Shown: positions 910-7,124 of the stretch, in pieces
Numbering within the stretch: position 1 is the first letter of the stretch
How the letters are laid out: every line of letters starts with the position of its first letter
Origin: Candidatus Auribacterota bacterium
Lineage (GTDB): Bacteria > Auribacterota > JAFGBW01
NCBI GenBank assembly: GCA_016932965.1
Contig: JAFGBW010000272.1
Coordinates: forward strand, 1-7,193
DNA length: 7,193 nucleotides
Reading direction: 5' to 3'
Notes under the pieces: model-generated
Database searches by the model: none
What the model saw: the letters and a program-made list of their open reading frames with translations, nothing else
What the model was told of the DNA's origin: nothing
Position numbers and translations under genes: made by a program

Positions 910-3900
910 TTACTTCTTGACCGTCACCTTGAATAATCCTGGCTCAGAGGAAACAGTGTATTTTCTCTCTTTATCCACCTCAAGGATCAAAGACAAGAGC
1001 TTCTGCCAATTCCTATACATAGAAGGCAGAACTGCAGCGGCATGGAAGGCCTTGAAAGAGACCAAAACCCCTTCCCTGATGTCTCCGGAATCCGGCAACG
1101 CTGAAATAACCGTGTCCTTGAATGTGATGATGATCCGGTACGGATCTTTCATGGTCGTGACGGTATAGTCAACCGCAGCGCTGGTCCTGACCGCAAAAAT
1201 AGTTTCATAGCTGTTGTCCTCAACATGATATTCAACGAACGTGATGCGATCCTTGTCTTGCAGATAAGGCTGATACATGTCCTTATCTTCTTTTGTGCTT
1301 TTCTCGGCGAGGATCTGTTCCGGAGTTTTAAGCATGGAGCCACGGGTCTTTTTCGGCCTTTCATGGTCAAAAGCTCTGTCGTACTCCTTCTTTTCAGAAT
1401 AATACGGACTGAAATCATCGTCTAATTTCTTTTTACTGAAAGAAAACCACCGGTGTTTCTTTTCATCGGAAGGAGTGGAGAAATGATATTTTTCATCATA
1501 GACTTTGTATTGATCCATGGACTCATCATCCGCGGATTTTTTCCCAAAAATCCCGAACAGCTTTTTGGGAGCACGCATGACGCTTTTTTCCTGCTTTTCC
1601 CTCAGGATATCCGTTACCACCTCATCCGGATAATAAGAGGCTACACCATGACCGACAGGAAGCATTTGATACCATTTTTTGCCTTTCTGCTTATCTGAAA
1701 CCATAAGACGGATGCCCCTACCCAGATTTTCTTTATCCACGGCAACAACCCCGGAGGAAGGATCCATGTAATTATGAATGCCCAAATTCTTATTCAACCT
1801 GCTGAAGGAAATATAATAATCAGCCTGGGATGATATGAGATCGGTTTTACTGTTCCATAATTTTGCTTCCGCTCTCATCACCTGAACTATCGTGGCCTGG
1901 TCCATCTGCTGTTTTGCCCTGAAAGACCGCAGTTCCTCTTCTGCATAAAGAATTTCAGCCTTCCTGTTTTTGATCTTGGCCTCTGCTTCCTTGATAGAAT
2001 AAACGGATGACTGAATGTCATGGACCAGCGTTCTCTTGCTGTCTTCCATTTCATTCAGCGCCTTATGATAGGCAATGTTGGCCTCCGCAACGGAAGTATT
2101 CTCAGGATTTTCCCAGAGTTTCAATGCGACTTCCCCGCTCTGGTATTCAGTGGAGGTATACTGTCCGACCTGGGGGACCTTGTCCTGTTTGATGGCATTG
2201 GCTTCCAAAACATGGGGCCCCAGATTCTTCGAAACCTTGATCCCGAGGTAATATTCATCCTTCAGGTCAATCTCCTCATCCGCGTAATATTCATCATGTC
2301 TGCCATAAGTGCCGGAAAGTTCCACGTTGAACGAGCTTTTCTTTTCAGCAATTTCGAGGCCGTATTTATAAAACAAAACCAGCAGTTTTTTAACCTGATA
2401 ATCGCGCCTGTTTTTATAAGCCACATCCAGCAATTTTTCCGTGTCCAGCTTAAAGGAAGCAGGAGCTGGCATATTCACGATATCAAGTGTGGTTGTATGC
2501 GGGACAGAAAGAAGCTGGATGAGGGCCAATTTGGCCATTTCCACATCATTTTTTACTTCCTGCACCTGGTACAGGATTTCCTCATACTGATCTCTTGCTT
2601 CCAAAATCTCGGCCAGAGTCAGCGCCTTGGCATTAAACTGTTTTTCCGCGATATCCAGAAGCTCTTTACCGCGTTTCAACAATTCCTGTTTATTTTTCAT
2701 TTTTTCCTTGGCAAATGCCATATTGTAAAAAGCCTGAGTGACTTCAAAAGTGAACTCTGATTTTGTTTTTTCATAATTTTTTCGTGCCACGGCCAGATTC
2801 ACGCGGGCCTGATTATAAGTCAGCCGGTACTTTCCGCCTGCATAAATATTTTGCTGCAGTTCAGCGCCGAATTCCTCACCTTTAAAATCCTCCCTGTCAT
2901 CAGTCCCGGATGTGCCGGAAGTTTCCTTCCATTTCAATTTGACTTTCGGGAACAACGCCCTCTTGGACTCACTCACTTTCATGCGCGCCAGGACCACTTC
3001 CTCCTGGGCTATTTTCGATGGCAGATGATTGGCCACTCCTATAGTGACGCAGTCATCAAGGGAAAGAACGCCTAAATCTTCCACCTGGGTCTGGAGAGAG
3101 GGTCGAAGGATGACATCCTCCGGGGATCCGCCTTCTTCCACATAAGTTCTTTGATTCCGTCTGGCACGGGCGAGGTACCGCCTGGCTCTTAAATTCTCAG
3201 GATCCAGTTCAAGGATCTTTTCAAAAGTGATGATGGCATTGGCATAATCCAGATTGGCAAACTGCTCTTCTCCAGTTGCCTGGAGTTTTTCTATTTCCTG
3301 TGTTTTCCCGGGTTCCATCCCGGCAGTCACTTCGGAAGGGCCAATCTGCTCTGACCTGATCTTTTCCCTTGCTTTTTCCAAAAGAGAGGTCGCCTTTTCA
3401 TCCCCCGGTTTGATCCTCAAAGCCTGCCTCCAGGCCTCGGCTGCTTCCTCATAACGCTGTTGTTTATAGAAAGAGTTACCGTCCTCCATCAAATCGGAAT
3501 ATTGCTTTTCTGTTTCCTCGGAAGCTTCCATCTGCTTTTCCAGGGCGCCGGCAATTTCTCCGGCCTCCACTTTCTGATTTTCCAGACTTTTGGTCTCGTC
3601 TCCCGCGACTTTCTCAGCCAGTTGGTCCGCTTCCCTTCTGTCAGAAGCAATCTTATCGTCAATCTTCTTTAAGAGAGCCTGGGCGTCTTCATTCTGAGGA
3701 TCCGATTGCAAAGCACTCTGGCAATCAGCCTTTGCCAGCAGCACATATCCCTCGCTGTAATTCTTTTCAGCAGATGCAAGGAGTTTTTCGATTTGTTCCT
3801 GATTGACTCCTGACGAGGACGAGGCCGGAATCACATCCACCATGATATTGTTGTCCTTCTGAAAGACTTCGTATTGCGCGTCTTCATCTATTTCTATGAC

Positions 3901-4230
3901 CATGGCATCAAGAAAACAGATTCCTGTTTGCTGGGTAGCCGCATTTTTCAACAGCATGAATCTGACACTGTGTACAAGCCCGGTGGACTTCTCGATATTT
4001 TCAAGCTCTTTGGTTTTAGCCTTTTCCTTCAAACTCAGGATAATCCGCTTTGGATTCTGCAATTCACTGGTCTCGTACTGGGCACTTCCATCGAGTGACA
4101 GCACCAAGCGCGTCTTATTGTCAATTTCAGTCACCTGAACGTCATTAACTGTTGATTCCGCGATGACAACACCTGTTAACATGATGAATCCGCACAACCA
4201 CATCCCGATACCGGAAACTCTGTTTTTCAT
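910..4230 (-). CDS. AMIN-TPR-TolC-AMIN fusion: outer-membrane efflux channel with peptidoglycan-binding-type domains at both ends
   Basis: A 1106-residue secreted protein, more than twice the usual TolC-family length (about 430-490). Residues 1-24 are a signal peptide with likely cleavage after VIA. About 27-135 is an AMIN domain (LQNPKRIILSL, later VIEIDEDAQYEV). Three TPR-like units follow near 143-195, 241-291 and 310-358, the second and third best (YEEAAEAWRQALRIKPGD; YANAIITFEKILELDPEN). About 387-820 is a full outer-membrane efflux domain with its two repeats, including LFPKVKLKW and long coiled helices. About 830-990 is a charged linker, and about 995-1104 a second AMIN domain (MKDPYRIIITFKD, later LILEVDKERKYTV). 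In known proteins AMIN domains bind cell-wall components, as in AmiC and the secretin PilQ. The start is fixed by a strong ribosome binding site. It is first gene of an operon with the adaptor, so an export role is likely; the substrate is unknown. Confidence 0.9.
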   Translation of the reverse strand: MKNRVSGIGMWLCGFIMLTGVVIAESTVNDVQVTEIDNKTRLVLSLDGSAQYETSELQNPKRIILSLKEKAKTKELENIEKSTGLVHSVRFMLLKNAATQQTGICFLDAMVIEIDEDAQYEVFQKDNNIMVDVIPASSSSGVNQEQIEKLLASAEKNYSEGYVLLAKADCQSALQSDPQNEDAQALLKKIDDKIASDRREADQLAEKVAGDETKSLENQKVEAGEIAGALEKQMEASEETEKQYSDLMEDGNSFYKQQRYEEAAEAWRQALRIKPGDEKATSLLEKAREKIRSEQIGPSEVTAGMEPGKTQEIEKLQATGEEQFANLDYANAIITFEKILELDPENLRARRYLARARRNQRTYVEEGGSPEDVILRPSLQTQVEDLGVLSLDDCVTIGVANHLPSKIAQEEVVLARMKVSESKRALFPKVKLKWKETSGTSGTDDREDFKGEEFGAELQQNIYAGGKYRLTYNQARVNLAVARKNYEKTKSEFTFEVTQAFYNMAFAKEKMKNKQELLKRGKELLDIAEKQFNAKALTLAEILEARDQYEEILYQVQEVKNDVEMAKLALIQLLSVPHTTTLDIVNMPAPASFKLDTEKLLDVAYKNRRDYQVKKLLVLFYKYGLEIAEKKSSFNVELSGTYGRHDEYYADEEIDLKDEYYLGIKVSKNLGPHVLEANAIKQDKVPQVGQYTSTEYQSGEVALKLWENPENTSVAEANIAYHKALNEMEDSKRTLVHDIQSSVYSIKEAEAKIKNRKAEILYAEEELRSFRAKQQMDQATIVQVMRAEAKLWNSKTDLISSQADYYISFSRLNKNLGIHNYMDPSSGVVAVDKENLGRGIRLMVSDKQKGKKWYQMLPVGHGVASYYPDEVVTDILREKQEKSVMRAPKKLFGIFGKKSADDESMDQYKVYDEKYHFSTPSDEKKHRWFSFSKKKLDDDFSPYYSEKKEYDRAFDHERPKKTRGSMLKTPEQILAEKSTKEDKDMYQPYLQDKDRITFVEYHVEDNSYETIFAVRTSAAVDYTVTTMKDPYRIIITFKDTVISALPDSGDIREGVLVSFKAFHAAAVLPSMYRNWQKLLSLILEVDKERKYTVSSEPGLFKVTVKK

Positions 4231-4997: not shown

Positions 4998-5080
4998 AAA
5001 GAGGCTTGTTTTGACTGAATCCACGGATGCCTGAATTGCTATCATCGTGGAAAAGGAAAATCCTGATCAATTTAAATGCC

Positions 5081-5085
5081 GAGGT
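5081..5085 (+). promoter_or_regulatory. Ribosome binding site that decides the methyltransferase start
   Basis: GAGGT lies 9 nt before the ATG at 5095. The frame also allows a GTG at 5047, but no Shine-Dalgarno sequence precedes that codon, so the ATG is preferred. Confidence 0.65.
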
Positions 5086-5094
5086 ATTTTAACC

Positions 5095-5850
5095 ATGACC
5101 GATTTTAAGGTGGATAAACATTGGCAGGAAAATTACGACTCCTATTATAGCGAGGACCAAACAGAGTGGCGGCGCCTGGGGGCCATTGATAAAGCCGAGA
5201 ATATTCTATCGTTTTGCAAGGATCTCTCTATTCGATCGCTCATTGATATCGGGGCCGGCGAAGGCGCTGTTTTACAGCGTCTTTCGGAACTGGGATTCGC
5301 TGAAGATTATTATTGTGTGGAAATATCCACGACCGGCGTCGATACGATAAAAAAGAGAAACATCAGGAATCTAAAAGAGTGCAAGGTCTTCGATGGATAC
5401 AGCATCCCCTATGACGATAAACGCTTTGACTTGTCAATACTCAGCCATGTCATTGAACACGCGGAGCATCCAAGGAAACTCCTGACAGAGGCAAAACGTG
5501 CGGCGAAATATGTGTTCATTGAAGTTCCACTGGAAGATAACATGCGGCTGCCGGATGATTTTGTCATGGATAAAGTCGGGCATATCAACTTTTATTCGGC
5601 GAAAACAATACGAAGGCTTCTCCAGACCTGCGGCCTGAAAGTCTTGAAACAAAAAGTGGTCCATGCTTCTAAAGCAGTGTACGCCTATCGCAAAAGCAGG
5701 ATGGCGCTGCTGCAATATTATCTGAAAGAAAATCTCCTGCGCTTTTTCCCAAAGCTTGCCGGATTATTATTTACGTATCACTGCGCCATTTTATGCTCTG
5801 ATCAGAATGATCCAACAGTCAAAATACCGCCGGGAAGCTTAAAAATGTAA
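5095..5850 (+). CDS. Class I SAM-dependent methyltransferase, substrate unknown
   Basis: A 251-residue soluble enzyme expected to move a methyl group from S-adenosylmethionine to an unknown acceptor. The Rossmann-fold landmarks are in order: motif I LIDIGAGEG (49-57) for SAM binding, the acidic end of strand 2 at E76 (CVEIS), the region after strand 3 (FDGYSIPYDDKRFDL, 99-113), motif IV/post-IV LSHVIEHAEHP (116-126), and YVFIEVPLED at 139-148. HINFYS (163-168) followed by a helix ending TCGLKVL is common in methyltransferases of the Methyltransf_11/23 type, many of which modify sugars, lipids or small molecules. The C-terminal 50 residues are basic and aromatic, with no clear membrane helix. 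It stands alone on the plus strand between two minus-strand clusters and has its own promoter and ribosome binding site. The fold is secure; the substrate is not. Confidence 0.87.
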   Translation: MTDFKVDKHWQENYDSYYSEDQTEWRRLGAIDKAENILSFCKDLSIRSLIDIGAGEGAVLQRLSELGFAEDYYCVEISTTGVDTIKKRNIRNLKECKVFDGYSIPYDDKRFDLSILSHVIEHAEHPRKLLTEAKRAAKYVFIEVPLEDNMRLPDDFVMDKVGHINFYSAKTIRRLLQTCGLKVLKQKVVHASKAVYAYRKSRMALLQYYLKENLLRFFPKLAGLLFTYHCAILCSDQNDPTVKIPPGSLKM

Positions 5851-5888: not shown

Positions 5889-5960
5889 CACTACGAAGGA
5901 CACGGAGATAATCTTGCCTCGCTTCGCTCGGTATCCATTCACCACTCACTATTCATTCCC
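5889..5960. repeat. Repeat-like intergenic DNA with four 7-bp units on the minus strand
   Basis: On the minus strand 5960-5933 splits into four heptamers: GGGAATG, AATAGTG, AGTGGTG and AATGGAT. Next to them lie CTCGCTTCGCTC (5918-5929, identical when read backward on the same strand) and CTACGAAGGACACGGAGA (5891-5908). The last resembles dispersed intergenic repeat motifs that I recall from many environmental bacterial genomes. Only one copy is in the window, so its dispersed nature is inferred. Confidence 0.4.
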
Positions 5961-6482
5961 TATTTTCAACTCTCGGCGTATGGTCTGGATCTGTTCCAAC
6001 AATTCTTTTGCCAGGTCCTCGTCCCCGTCTCTGATGTGTTCATACAAGAACAGGGATTCGTCGATATAAAGGAGCTGGAAGCCGTGATCAAGGTGGCTGA
6101 CTTCCGAGAGGTTATCGATCCGGTCGCAAAGCTTGATTATTTTCACCTCTCTTGGAGCGGAAGCAAGCCTTTTCGCGTCGAATTCCTTCCGGGCCTTTCT
6201 GGGTTGTATTCCCAATGACTTGGAAATATTGGTCAGCAAATAAACGTAATCTGCGCAGACCGGTCCAAAGCAGGCTTCTATCTGGCCGCGGGTCACACCG
6301 CAATCCTCGATCACATCATGCAGATAAGCCGAGATGATCATTTCTTCGGTTGACTTCGCCTGTTTTGCCACACGGGCCGCCACACGGAGCGGATGGAAAA
6401 TATAGGGGGTTTTTCCGTCCTTTCGCGTTTGTCCCTTATGCGCTTCTGCTGCAAACAATACGGCTTCGCAGATCCGGTTCAT
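5949..6482 (-). CDS. RelA/SpoT-type HD hydrolase (small alarmone hydrolase, MESH1-like)
   Basis: A 177-residue single-domain protein, about the size of MESH1-type enzymes, which remove the 3' pyrophosphate of (p)ppGpp. It carries the full set of residues known from the SpoT/Rel hydrolase site: R20 in GQTRKDGKTPYIFHP, metal ligand H30, H55-D56 in AYLHDVIED with E59-D60, and D120 with N124 in KLCDRIDNL. There is no synthetase or regulatory domain, so it should only hydrolyse, acting in the cytoplasm on (p)ppGpp or related nucleotides. It begins 3 nt after the stop of the YedJ-like gene. The AAGGA near the end of that gene can serve as its ribosome binding site, so the two are probably translated together. 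The last three codons and the stop lie in a heptamer repeat, so the C-terminus may have been altered. MESH1 has also been linked to NADPH hydrolysis, so another substrate is possible. Confidence 0.88.
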   Translation of the reverse strand: MNRICEAVLFAAEAHKGQTRKDGKTPYIFHPLRVAARVAKQAKSTEEMIISAYLHDVIEDCGVTRGQIEACFGPVCADYVYLLTNISKSLGIQPRKARKEFDAKRLASAPREVKIIKLCDRIDNLSEVSHLDHGFQLLYIDESLFLYEHIRDGDEDLAKELLEQIQTIRRELKIGNE

Positions 6483-6485
6483 CTT

Positions 6486-7124
6486 TTATCTTTTTCCTTC
6501 TATCTCTTCATTCAACCGCTTGAAAAACTGTTTCATATACTCATGCCGGCTGCGGGCGATTTTTCTTCCCTCAGAAGTGAGCATCGAATTTTTTACGTAC
6601 TGCAATTTTACCAGATATTCCCTGTAGGCAGTATCCTCACGGGTATAAGGACGCGTCCTGGAAACATCCACATGACGGTCATGGACCTTGGCCCCGACTT
6701 CACCGGCAAACAAAAAGGAACGGGCAAGCCCCACTGCGCCGATGGAATCCAGCTTATCCGCGTCAAAAAGCACTTTAGCCTCCCTGGACAGGGGCCTTAA
6801 CTTCCCCCTATACCGGTGGGTCTCAATGCAGTGGACAACCGCGTTGATTTTTTCCTCAGGGAACCTGTATTTTTTGAGTATTTTTTCCGCCAGTTGGGCT
6901 CCTTTTTTCGCGTGGCATATCCTGCCGCGTGAAGCGTCTTCAAGCGGTCTTGCAATATCATGTAATATGGCAGCGTAGCGGATGATCTCCTGATCCGCTT
7001 TTTCTTTTTTCCCAAGATAAAGCGCTGTTTTCAGCACCCGCTCCGTATGGGACCAGTCGTGCGATCCGGCTGTATGGGCCTGAAGACGTCTGGCTTCTTT
7101 AACGATATGCTGAAACACGCTCAT
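6486..7124 (-). CDS. HD-domain phosphohydrolase, YedJ-like
   Basis: A 212-residue soluble protein of the HD superfamily, whose members are metal-dependent phosphohydrolases. The expected metal and catalytic residues are visible: H26 in SHDWSHTERV, H55-D56 in AAILHDIARP, H71, H98 and H103 in VVHCIETHRY, and D121/D123 with D126 in LFDADKLDSIGAVG. The tail (TREDTAYREYLVKL, then TSEGRKIARSRHEYM) is typical of the YedJ family, whose substrate I do not know to be settled. The ATG at 7124 lacks a good ribosome binding site; a GAGGG lies 22 nt upstream but serves a two-codon frame better. The same reading frame stays open to the window edge without another ATG. It follows an ABC-type ATPase tail by 29 nt and precedes the alarmone hydrolase by 3 nt, so an operon is likely. 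Confidence 0.88.
   Translation of the reverse strand: MSVFQHIVKEARRLQAHTAGSHDWSHTERVLKTALYLGKKEKADQEIIRYAAILHDIARPLEDASRGRICHAKKGAQLAEKILKKYRFPEEKINAVVHCIETHRYRGKLRPLSREAKVLFDADKLDSIGAVGLARSFLFAGEVGAKVHDRHVDVSRTRPYTREDTAYREYLVKLQYVKNSMLTSEGRKIARSRHEYMKQFFKRLNEEIEGKR

Follow-up and report, generated by a model that had tools for sequence, protein, structure and literature searches.

A single-chain AMIN-TPR-OEP-AMIN protein, a predicted export-pump outer membrane factor, in Candidatus Auribacterota

Can one polypeptide combine a TolC-type export channel with AMIN domains at both of its ends, and what would such domains do there? This question is raised by a gene in the stretch of DNA analysed here (the window, 7,193 nt), which is the entire contig C61 of a 3.1-Mb draft genome assembled in 300 contigs. 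A sequence-only reading had proposed that this gene joins two AMIN domains, TPR units and a TolC channel in one chain. We examined the frame and its domains, its relatives within and outside the phylum, and its neighbouring genes.

Domain architecture of the 1106-residue chain

The gene is a single ORF of 1106 codons, running from 4230 to 910 with zero internal stops as judged by ORF reading and translation, and a ribosome site (AGGAAGG) lies shortly 5' of its ATG. The product consists of a signal peptide, an AMIN domain, a TPR region, a two-repeat TolC-type OEP domain, a basic linker and a second AMIN domain (Table 1). With ORF reading, Pfam and profile-profile comparison, the proposed AMIN-TPR-OEP-AMIN architecture was confirmed as that of one 1106-residue chain.

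Table 1. Features of the window and of the protein encoded at 910..4230
Feature	Residues	Position	Strand	Basis or remark
RND-type periplasmic adaptor (MFP), cut by contig end		3..896	minus	NCBIfam RND_mfp
AMIN-TPR-OEP-AMIN protein, predicted outer membrane factor (TolC type)	1106 aa	910..4230	minus	ORF and Pfam
Putative divergent AMIN, C-terminal	about 993-1104	919..1254	minus	hhalign; Pfam below cut-off
Lys/Tyr-rich linker	about 830-990	1261..1743	minus	read from translation
Complete OEP/TolC domain, two repeats	about 389-827	1750..3066	minus	Pfam OEP, PDB search
Conserved extra loop in second OEP repeat, GPHVLEANAIKQDKVPQVGQYTSTEYQSGE	671-700	2131..2220	minus	alignment A1
Helical TPR-type region, about three repeat units	about 142-366	3133..3807	minus	Pfam TPR models
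N-terminal AMIN	about 27-135	3826..4152	minus	Pfam AMIN, hhalign
Signal peptide, MKNRVSGIGMWLCGFIMLTGVVIA	1-24	4159..4230	minus	lipobox Cys absent; read from translation
Methyltransferase		5047-5850	plus	
HD-domain protein		5949-6482	minus	
HD-domain protein		6486-7124	minus	

The whole protein matched the Pfam AMIN model (PF11741; cut-off 20.5 bits) in two stretches, with 37.0 bits and an E-value of 3.7e-9. The N-terminal domain passed the cut-off on its own (31.1 bits, E 2.5e-7), in accord with the AMIN domain placed there by the sequence-only reading. For comparison by hhalign, we assembled two groups. A3 comprises nine AMIN domains that unrelated genomes encode in secretin, amidase and other frames, and as a profile it found PilQ and AmiC in the PDB; A5 contains the N-terminal AMIN of the window protein together with three relatives. 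The two groups matched at 98.2% (E 5e-14).

The C-terminal domain scored 14.6 bits by itself (E 0.036), below the Pfam cut-off, and matched at profile positions 10-46 only. The resemblance between the two ends that had been pointed out by eye was weak when they were compared as a single pair (score 51; highest in 1000 shuffles, 49), and their likeness became apparent by profile-profile comparison. Together with its counterpart from G001, a genome of the same order, the C-terminal domain (group A4) matched A5 with a probability of 96.8% (E 2.6e-10) and A3 with one of 64.7% (E 6e-5); the respective scores, 60.0 and 30.4, compare with maxima of 21.3 and 18.0 in 150 column shuffles of A4 each. As a single sequence it scored 35.8 against A5 (shuffle maximum 20.4) and 25.7 against A3 (shuffle maximum 23.1). 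The core pattern KDPxRIxI ... Y is kept in the window protein and in G001. It is on the profile-profile evidence only that we take the C-terminal domain as a divergent AMIN, as had been proposed for about residues 995-1104.

Pfam OEP (PF02321; cut-off 22) matched in two stretches with 119.3 bits (2.2e-34), both repeats were also above cut-off in a profile search of the whole genome, and a PDB search using the OEP part alone retrieved E. coli TolC chains at E about 1e-10 with both repeats aligned. The complete TolC domain that had been noted between the AMIN domains is present. Three TPR models passed their cut-offs in the preceding region (TPR_1, 29.6 bits against 27.8; TPR_2, 27.7 against 27; TPR_11, 27.8 against 26.8). 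The linker after the channel contains the aromatic-basic motifs KKLFGIFGKK and KKHRWFSFSKKK.

AlphaFold2, run on the whole chain with a four-row alignment, gave a mean pLDDT of 45.1, with both ends mostly below 50, a low confidence that we attribute to the small number of relatives. Helices of the TPR region reached mostly 70-88, at residues about 141-205 and 241-290 only; in this low-confidence single-chain model, the order of the long helices and of the few strands is the one expected of a TolC-type channel. The C-terminal 143 residues modelled alone, from one sequence, gave a pLDDT of 40.5.

The second OEP repeat contains a loop that, judged from the spacing of the TolC match, is about 26 residues longer than TolC at this place. 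Its invariant columns in alignment A1 are G671, E676, I680, Q682, P686, G689, Q690, T692 and S698, and it possibly forms added strands or a plug. The loop consensus TLExxFIxQDKxPSxGQTTS was seen in the window protein, in relatives from five other genomes and in a TPR-less paralogue on contig C74.

Relatives within and outside the phylum

The genome set searched included 44 genomes of Auribacterota. A contig scan using the single 1106-aa protein as query found no relative; the scan using an alignment found three, in Candidatus Auribacterota RA.bin133, a MAG filed as Chlamydiae bacterium, and Candidatus Theseobacter exili. A TPR-OEP core recurs in eight genomes of the phylum with differing ends. 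The protein of Theseobacter exili (L036/L062) shares the order AMIN, TPR, OEP with the window protein, ends in a TPR in place of the second AMIN, and is followed by adaptor and RND genes; its N-terminal AMIN passed the shuffle test (41.9 against a maximum of 17.6). TPR-OEP-TPR proteins were found in G012 and G005, and proteins with TPR-OEP followed by tryptophan repeats (WWxxW) in G013 and G006; in the proteins of G014, G007 and G021, another C-terminal segment follows three TPRs and OEP.

The closest precedent for the two ends comes from G001, whose AMIN-TPR-AMIN protein has 445 aa and is without OEP; no pump genes were seen beside its gene. Its N-terminal AMIN matched best with the N-terminal AMIN of the window protein (113; shuffle maximum 52), and its C-terminal AMIN matched best with the C-terminal one (86; shuffle maximum 55). 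In a tree of OEP domains, the two AMIN-bearing proteins, those of the window and of Theseobacter exili, were placed apart, which implies either two gains of AMIN or repeated losses.

In G013 and G006, the OEP proteins are without AMIN, and a separate BamD/YbgF-like TPR protein ends in an AMIN domain closely similar to the N-terminal AMIN of the window protein. The same two genomes share a further peculiarity: WWxxW(E/D)K repeats lie in the C-terminal 120 residues after OEP (L032 and L033), and similar (F/I)WExWKK repeats precede the AMIN of the separate TPR protein (L048 and L050).

AMIN was found in 176 of the 384 genomes searched. Among the matches listed for 12 AMIN-bearing genomes outside the phylum, no frame contained both AMIN and OEP when positions were compared by eye; G001, the thirteenth genome of this comparison, is of the same order and was counted apart. 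Judged from these matches, the AMIN-OEP fusion appears to be rare in the genomes sampled, and the earlier statement that TolC proteins normally lack AMIN holds within this sample. Three open-licence papers mention both the AMIN domain and TolC, each of them once; judged from titles and opening lines of abstracts, none of the three deals with a fusion of this kind.

The profile of alignment A1 matched one of the frames of 20 AMIN loci, L107 (profile positions 62-182), and we read this match as the TPR part. The L107 protein (contig C85 of G274; 1083 aa) contains TPR-like repeats, two tandem AMIN domains and, as identified by eye, a secretin-like end, which parallels the window protein.

Known systems resemble the window protein in part. 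As in TolC/OEP outer membrane factors, there are two OEP repeats and an adaptor gene directly 3'; unlike these factors, the protein is extended by about 360 residues on the N-terminal side of the channel and by about 280 on the C-terminal side (including AMIN and TPR), and compared with TolC it has the extra loop. PilQ secretins are likewise outer membrane channels with AMIN domains, so peptidoglycan binding and the setting of location might be expected here by analogy; however, the secretin fold is unrelated to OEP, and PilQ has its AMIN domains only before the channel, whereas the window protein has them at both ends. TonB-dependent receptors of the cyanobacterial type also combine an outer membrane barrel with an N-terminal AMIN, but their barrel is of another type, and no C-terminal AMIN or TPR was seen in them. 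Receptor-like frames of this kind (840-924 aa) were identified by eye in G234 and G365, which we guess to be cyanobacterial genomes.

Adaptor and pump genes

Only 13 bases separate the stop codon of the AMIN-TPR-OEP-AMIN gene from the start of the adaptor gene. Its product scored 136 bits with NCBIfam RND_mfp (curated cut-off 94.9) and is 36-42% identical to the adaptors that relatives from the phylum encode 3' of their OEP genes. We read the two genes as one operon. Contig C297 of the same genome shares an exact 35-base overlap with the window end and adds 139 codons to the adaptor gene; beyond the adaptor on C297 there is no RND pump gene, and a long gap is followed by unrelated genes. C119, which contains a pair of RND genes, was considered as the downstream contig and rejected: what precedes the RND genes there is a methyltransferase-like frame, and C297 is the continuation.

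Based on translation and BLAST, the order OEP, adaptor, RND was found in G013, G005, G020 and G021, mostly with a second RND gene. RND genes of both types found in these operons are present elsewhere in the window's genome (C119, C126 and C266), with about 42-47% identity to the operon RNDs of matching type in relatives. Because both RND types sit on other contigs, the operon has seemingly been broken up.

Another arrangement was seen on contig C98 of the same genome (L065:2712-12260, minus), where a single frame of 3182 codons begins its recognisable parts with membrane segments (about 954-1180) and an ABC ATPase (1259-1437). Two internal signals follow: the first, lipoprotein-like, precedes a lipoyl/adaptor-like region (about 2090-2600; by eye, without Pfam match), and the second precedes an OEP domain (about 2693-3150). 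This frame reads like an entire tripartite ABC exporter in one chain.

Proposed role in the envelope and alternatives

The equatorial domain of outer membrane factors includes both the N-terminal region and the C-terminal elongation (PMC8277102), and it has been proposed to interact with peptidoglycan (PMC13082787). In E. coli with a lengthened Lpp tether, TolC is essential and acts, by genetic evidence, like an extra link between the outer membrane and the wall (PMC8824477). The AMIN domain of P. aeruginosa PilQ binds peptidoglycan, and its deletion delocalises the pilus machine (PMC5285504); in M. xanthus, AMIN deletion stops the polar recruitment of PilQ (PMC10653833). The protein probably serves a tripartite RND-type export pump as its outer membrane factor and is held or placed at the peptidoglycan by AMIN, a reading to which we assign a probability of roughly 60%. 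Its two TolC-like OEP repeats, the neighbouring RND-type adaptor and the RND genes elsewhere in the genome speak for it. The TolC-type channel would be built from three chains, with the N- and C-terminal additions emerging at the equatorial belt, so that the trimer presents six AMIN domains near the level of the wall. These may bind peptidoglycan, perhaps a septal or polar form of it; such binding would hold the channel at a fixed height or place and help the adaptor and pump to dock, and the TPR segment may bind a partner protein. The position of the ends of outer membrane factors, at a domain proposed to meet peptidoglycan, is compatible with both of them reaching the wall. A wall for binding is likely available, because penicillin-binding transpeptidases are present in the genome.

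The sequence-only reading, which had the channel fixed to the wall by both ends and the TPR units as a periplasmic docking platform, is partly supported. The both-end topology fits, but it does not extend to a rule for the family, since the AMIN of Theseobacter exili is N-terminal only. The AMIN domains may also serve localisation at the septum or poles, as for PilQ, rather than plain anchoring. Several points argue against the preferred reading. Most TPR-OEP relatives in the phylum are without AMIN and presumably work too; three OmpA/Pal-type proteins of the same genome already offer wall anchoring; and the pump gene lies apart from the adaptor gene.

Nor need AMIN imply wall binding, as the domain is reportedly discussed for FliO of the flagellar export apparatus, too. 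Instead of touching peptidoglycan directly, the AMIN and TPR segments could bind proteins and so recruit assembly factors, the adaptor or a second periplasmic protein. The free variation of the ends among relatives (AMIN, TPR, tryptophan-rich repeats or another C-terminal segment) would suit interchangeable docking modules of this sort, and the placement of AMIN on a separate BamD/YbgF-like protein in G006 and G013 and the case of FliO also speak for this explanation; however, the channel AMIN domains that have been studied experimentally, those of PilQ, bind peptidoglycan, and we consider the docking explanation rather unlikely.

Two other explanations concern the origin of the chain. The second AMIN might be a functionless, degenerate remnant, left when an OEP gene recombined with one for AMIN-TPR-AMIN. 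The G001 protein, which is colinear with the two ends of the window protein, and the score of the C-terminal AMIN below the Pfam cut-off are consistent with such an event, but the intact frame and the core pattern retained here and in G001 make loss of function improbable. An error of sequencing or assembly that joined separate genes is conceivable in a draft of 300 contigs, the more so as the exact architecture was found in no second genome. Against it stand the uninterrupted frame with its good ribosome site and the homologous precedents for each of the first junctions: AMIN-TPR in G001, AMIN-TPR-OEP in Theseobacter exili and TPR-OEP in eight genomes. A chimera is further disfavoured because the N- and C-terminal ends of the window protein pair with the corresponding ends of a single G001 protein; we regard such an error as very improbable.

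If the AMIN domains do act at the wall, the protein might represent a class of wall-clamped export channels, with peptidoglycan-binding domains at both ends that determine where the pump sits and how the envelope is spaced, independently of separate tethers such as Lpp or Pal, and, within the phylum, a core with interchangeable periplasmic ends. This broader proposal is a tentative possibility. Even for E. coli, the way in which tripartite pumps find and pass through the cell wall is still under study. The combination of a TolC-type channel with an AMIN at each end was not found in the other bacteria sampled, and it suggests that a pump may anchor or place itself in the wall. If true, a channel with its own wall-binding domains would make the contact between the equatorial belt and peptidoglycan directly testable.
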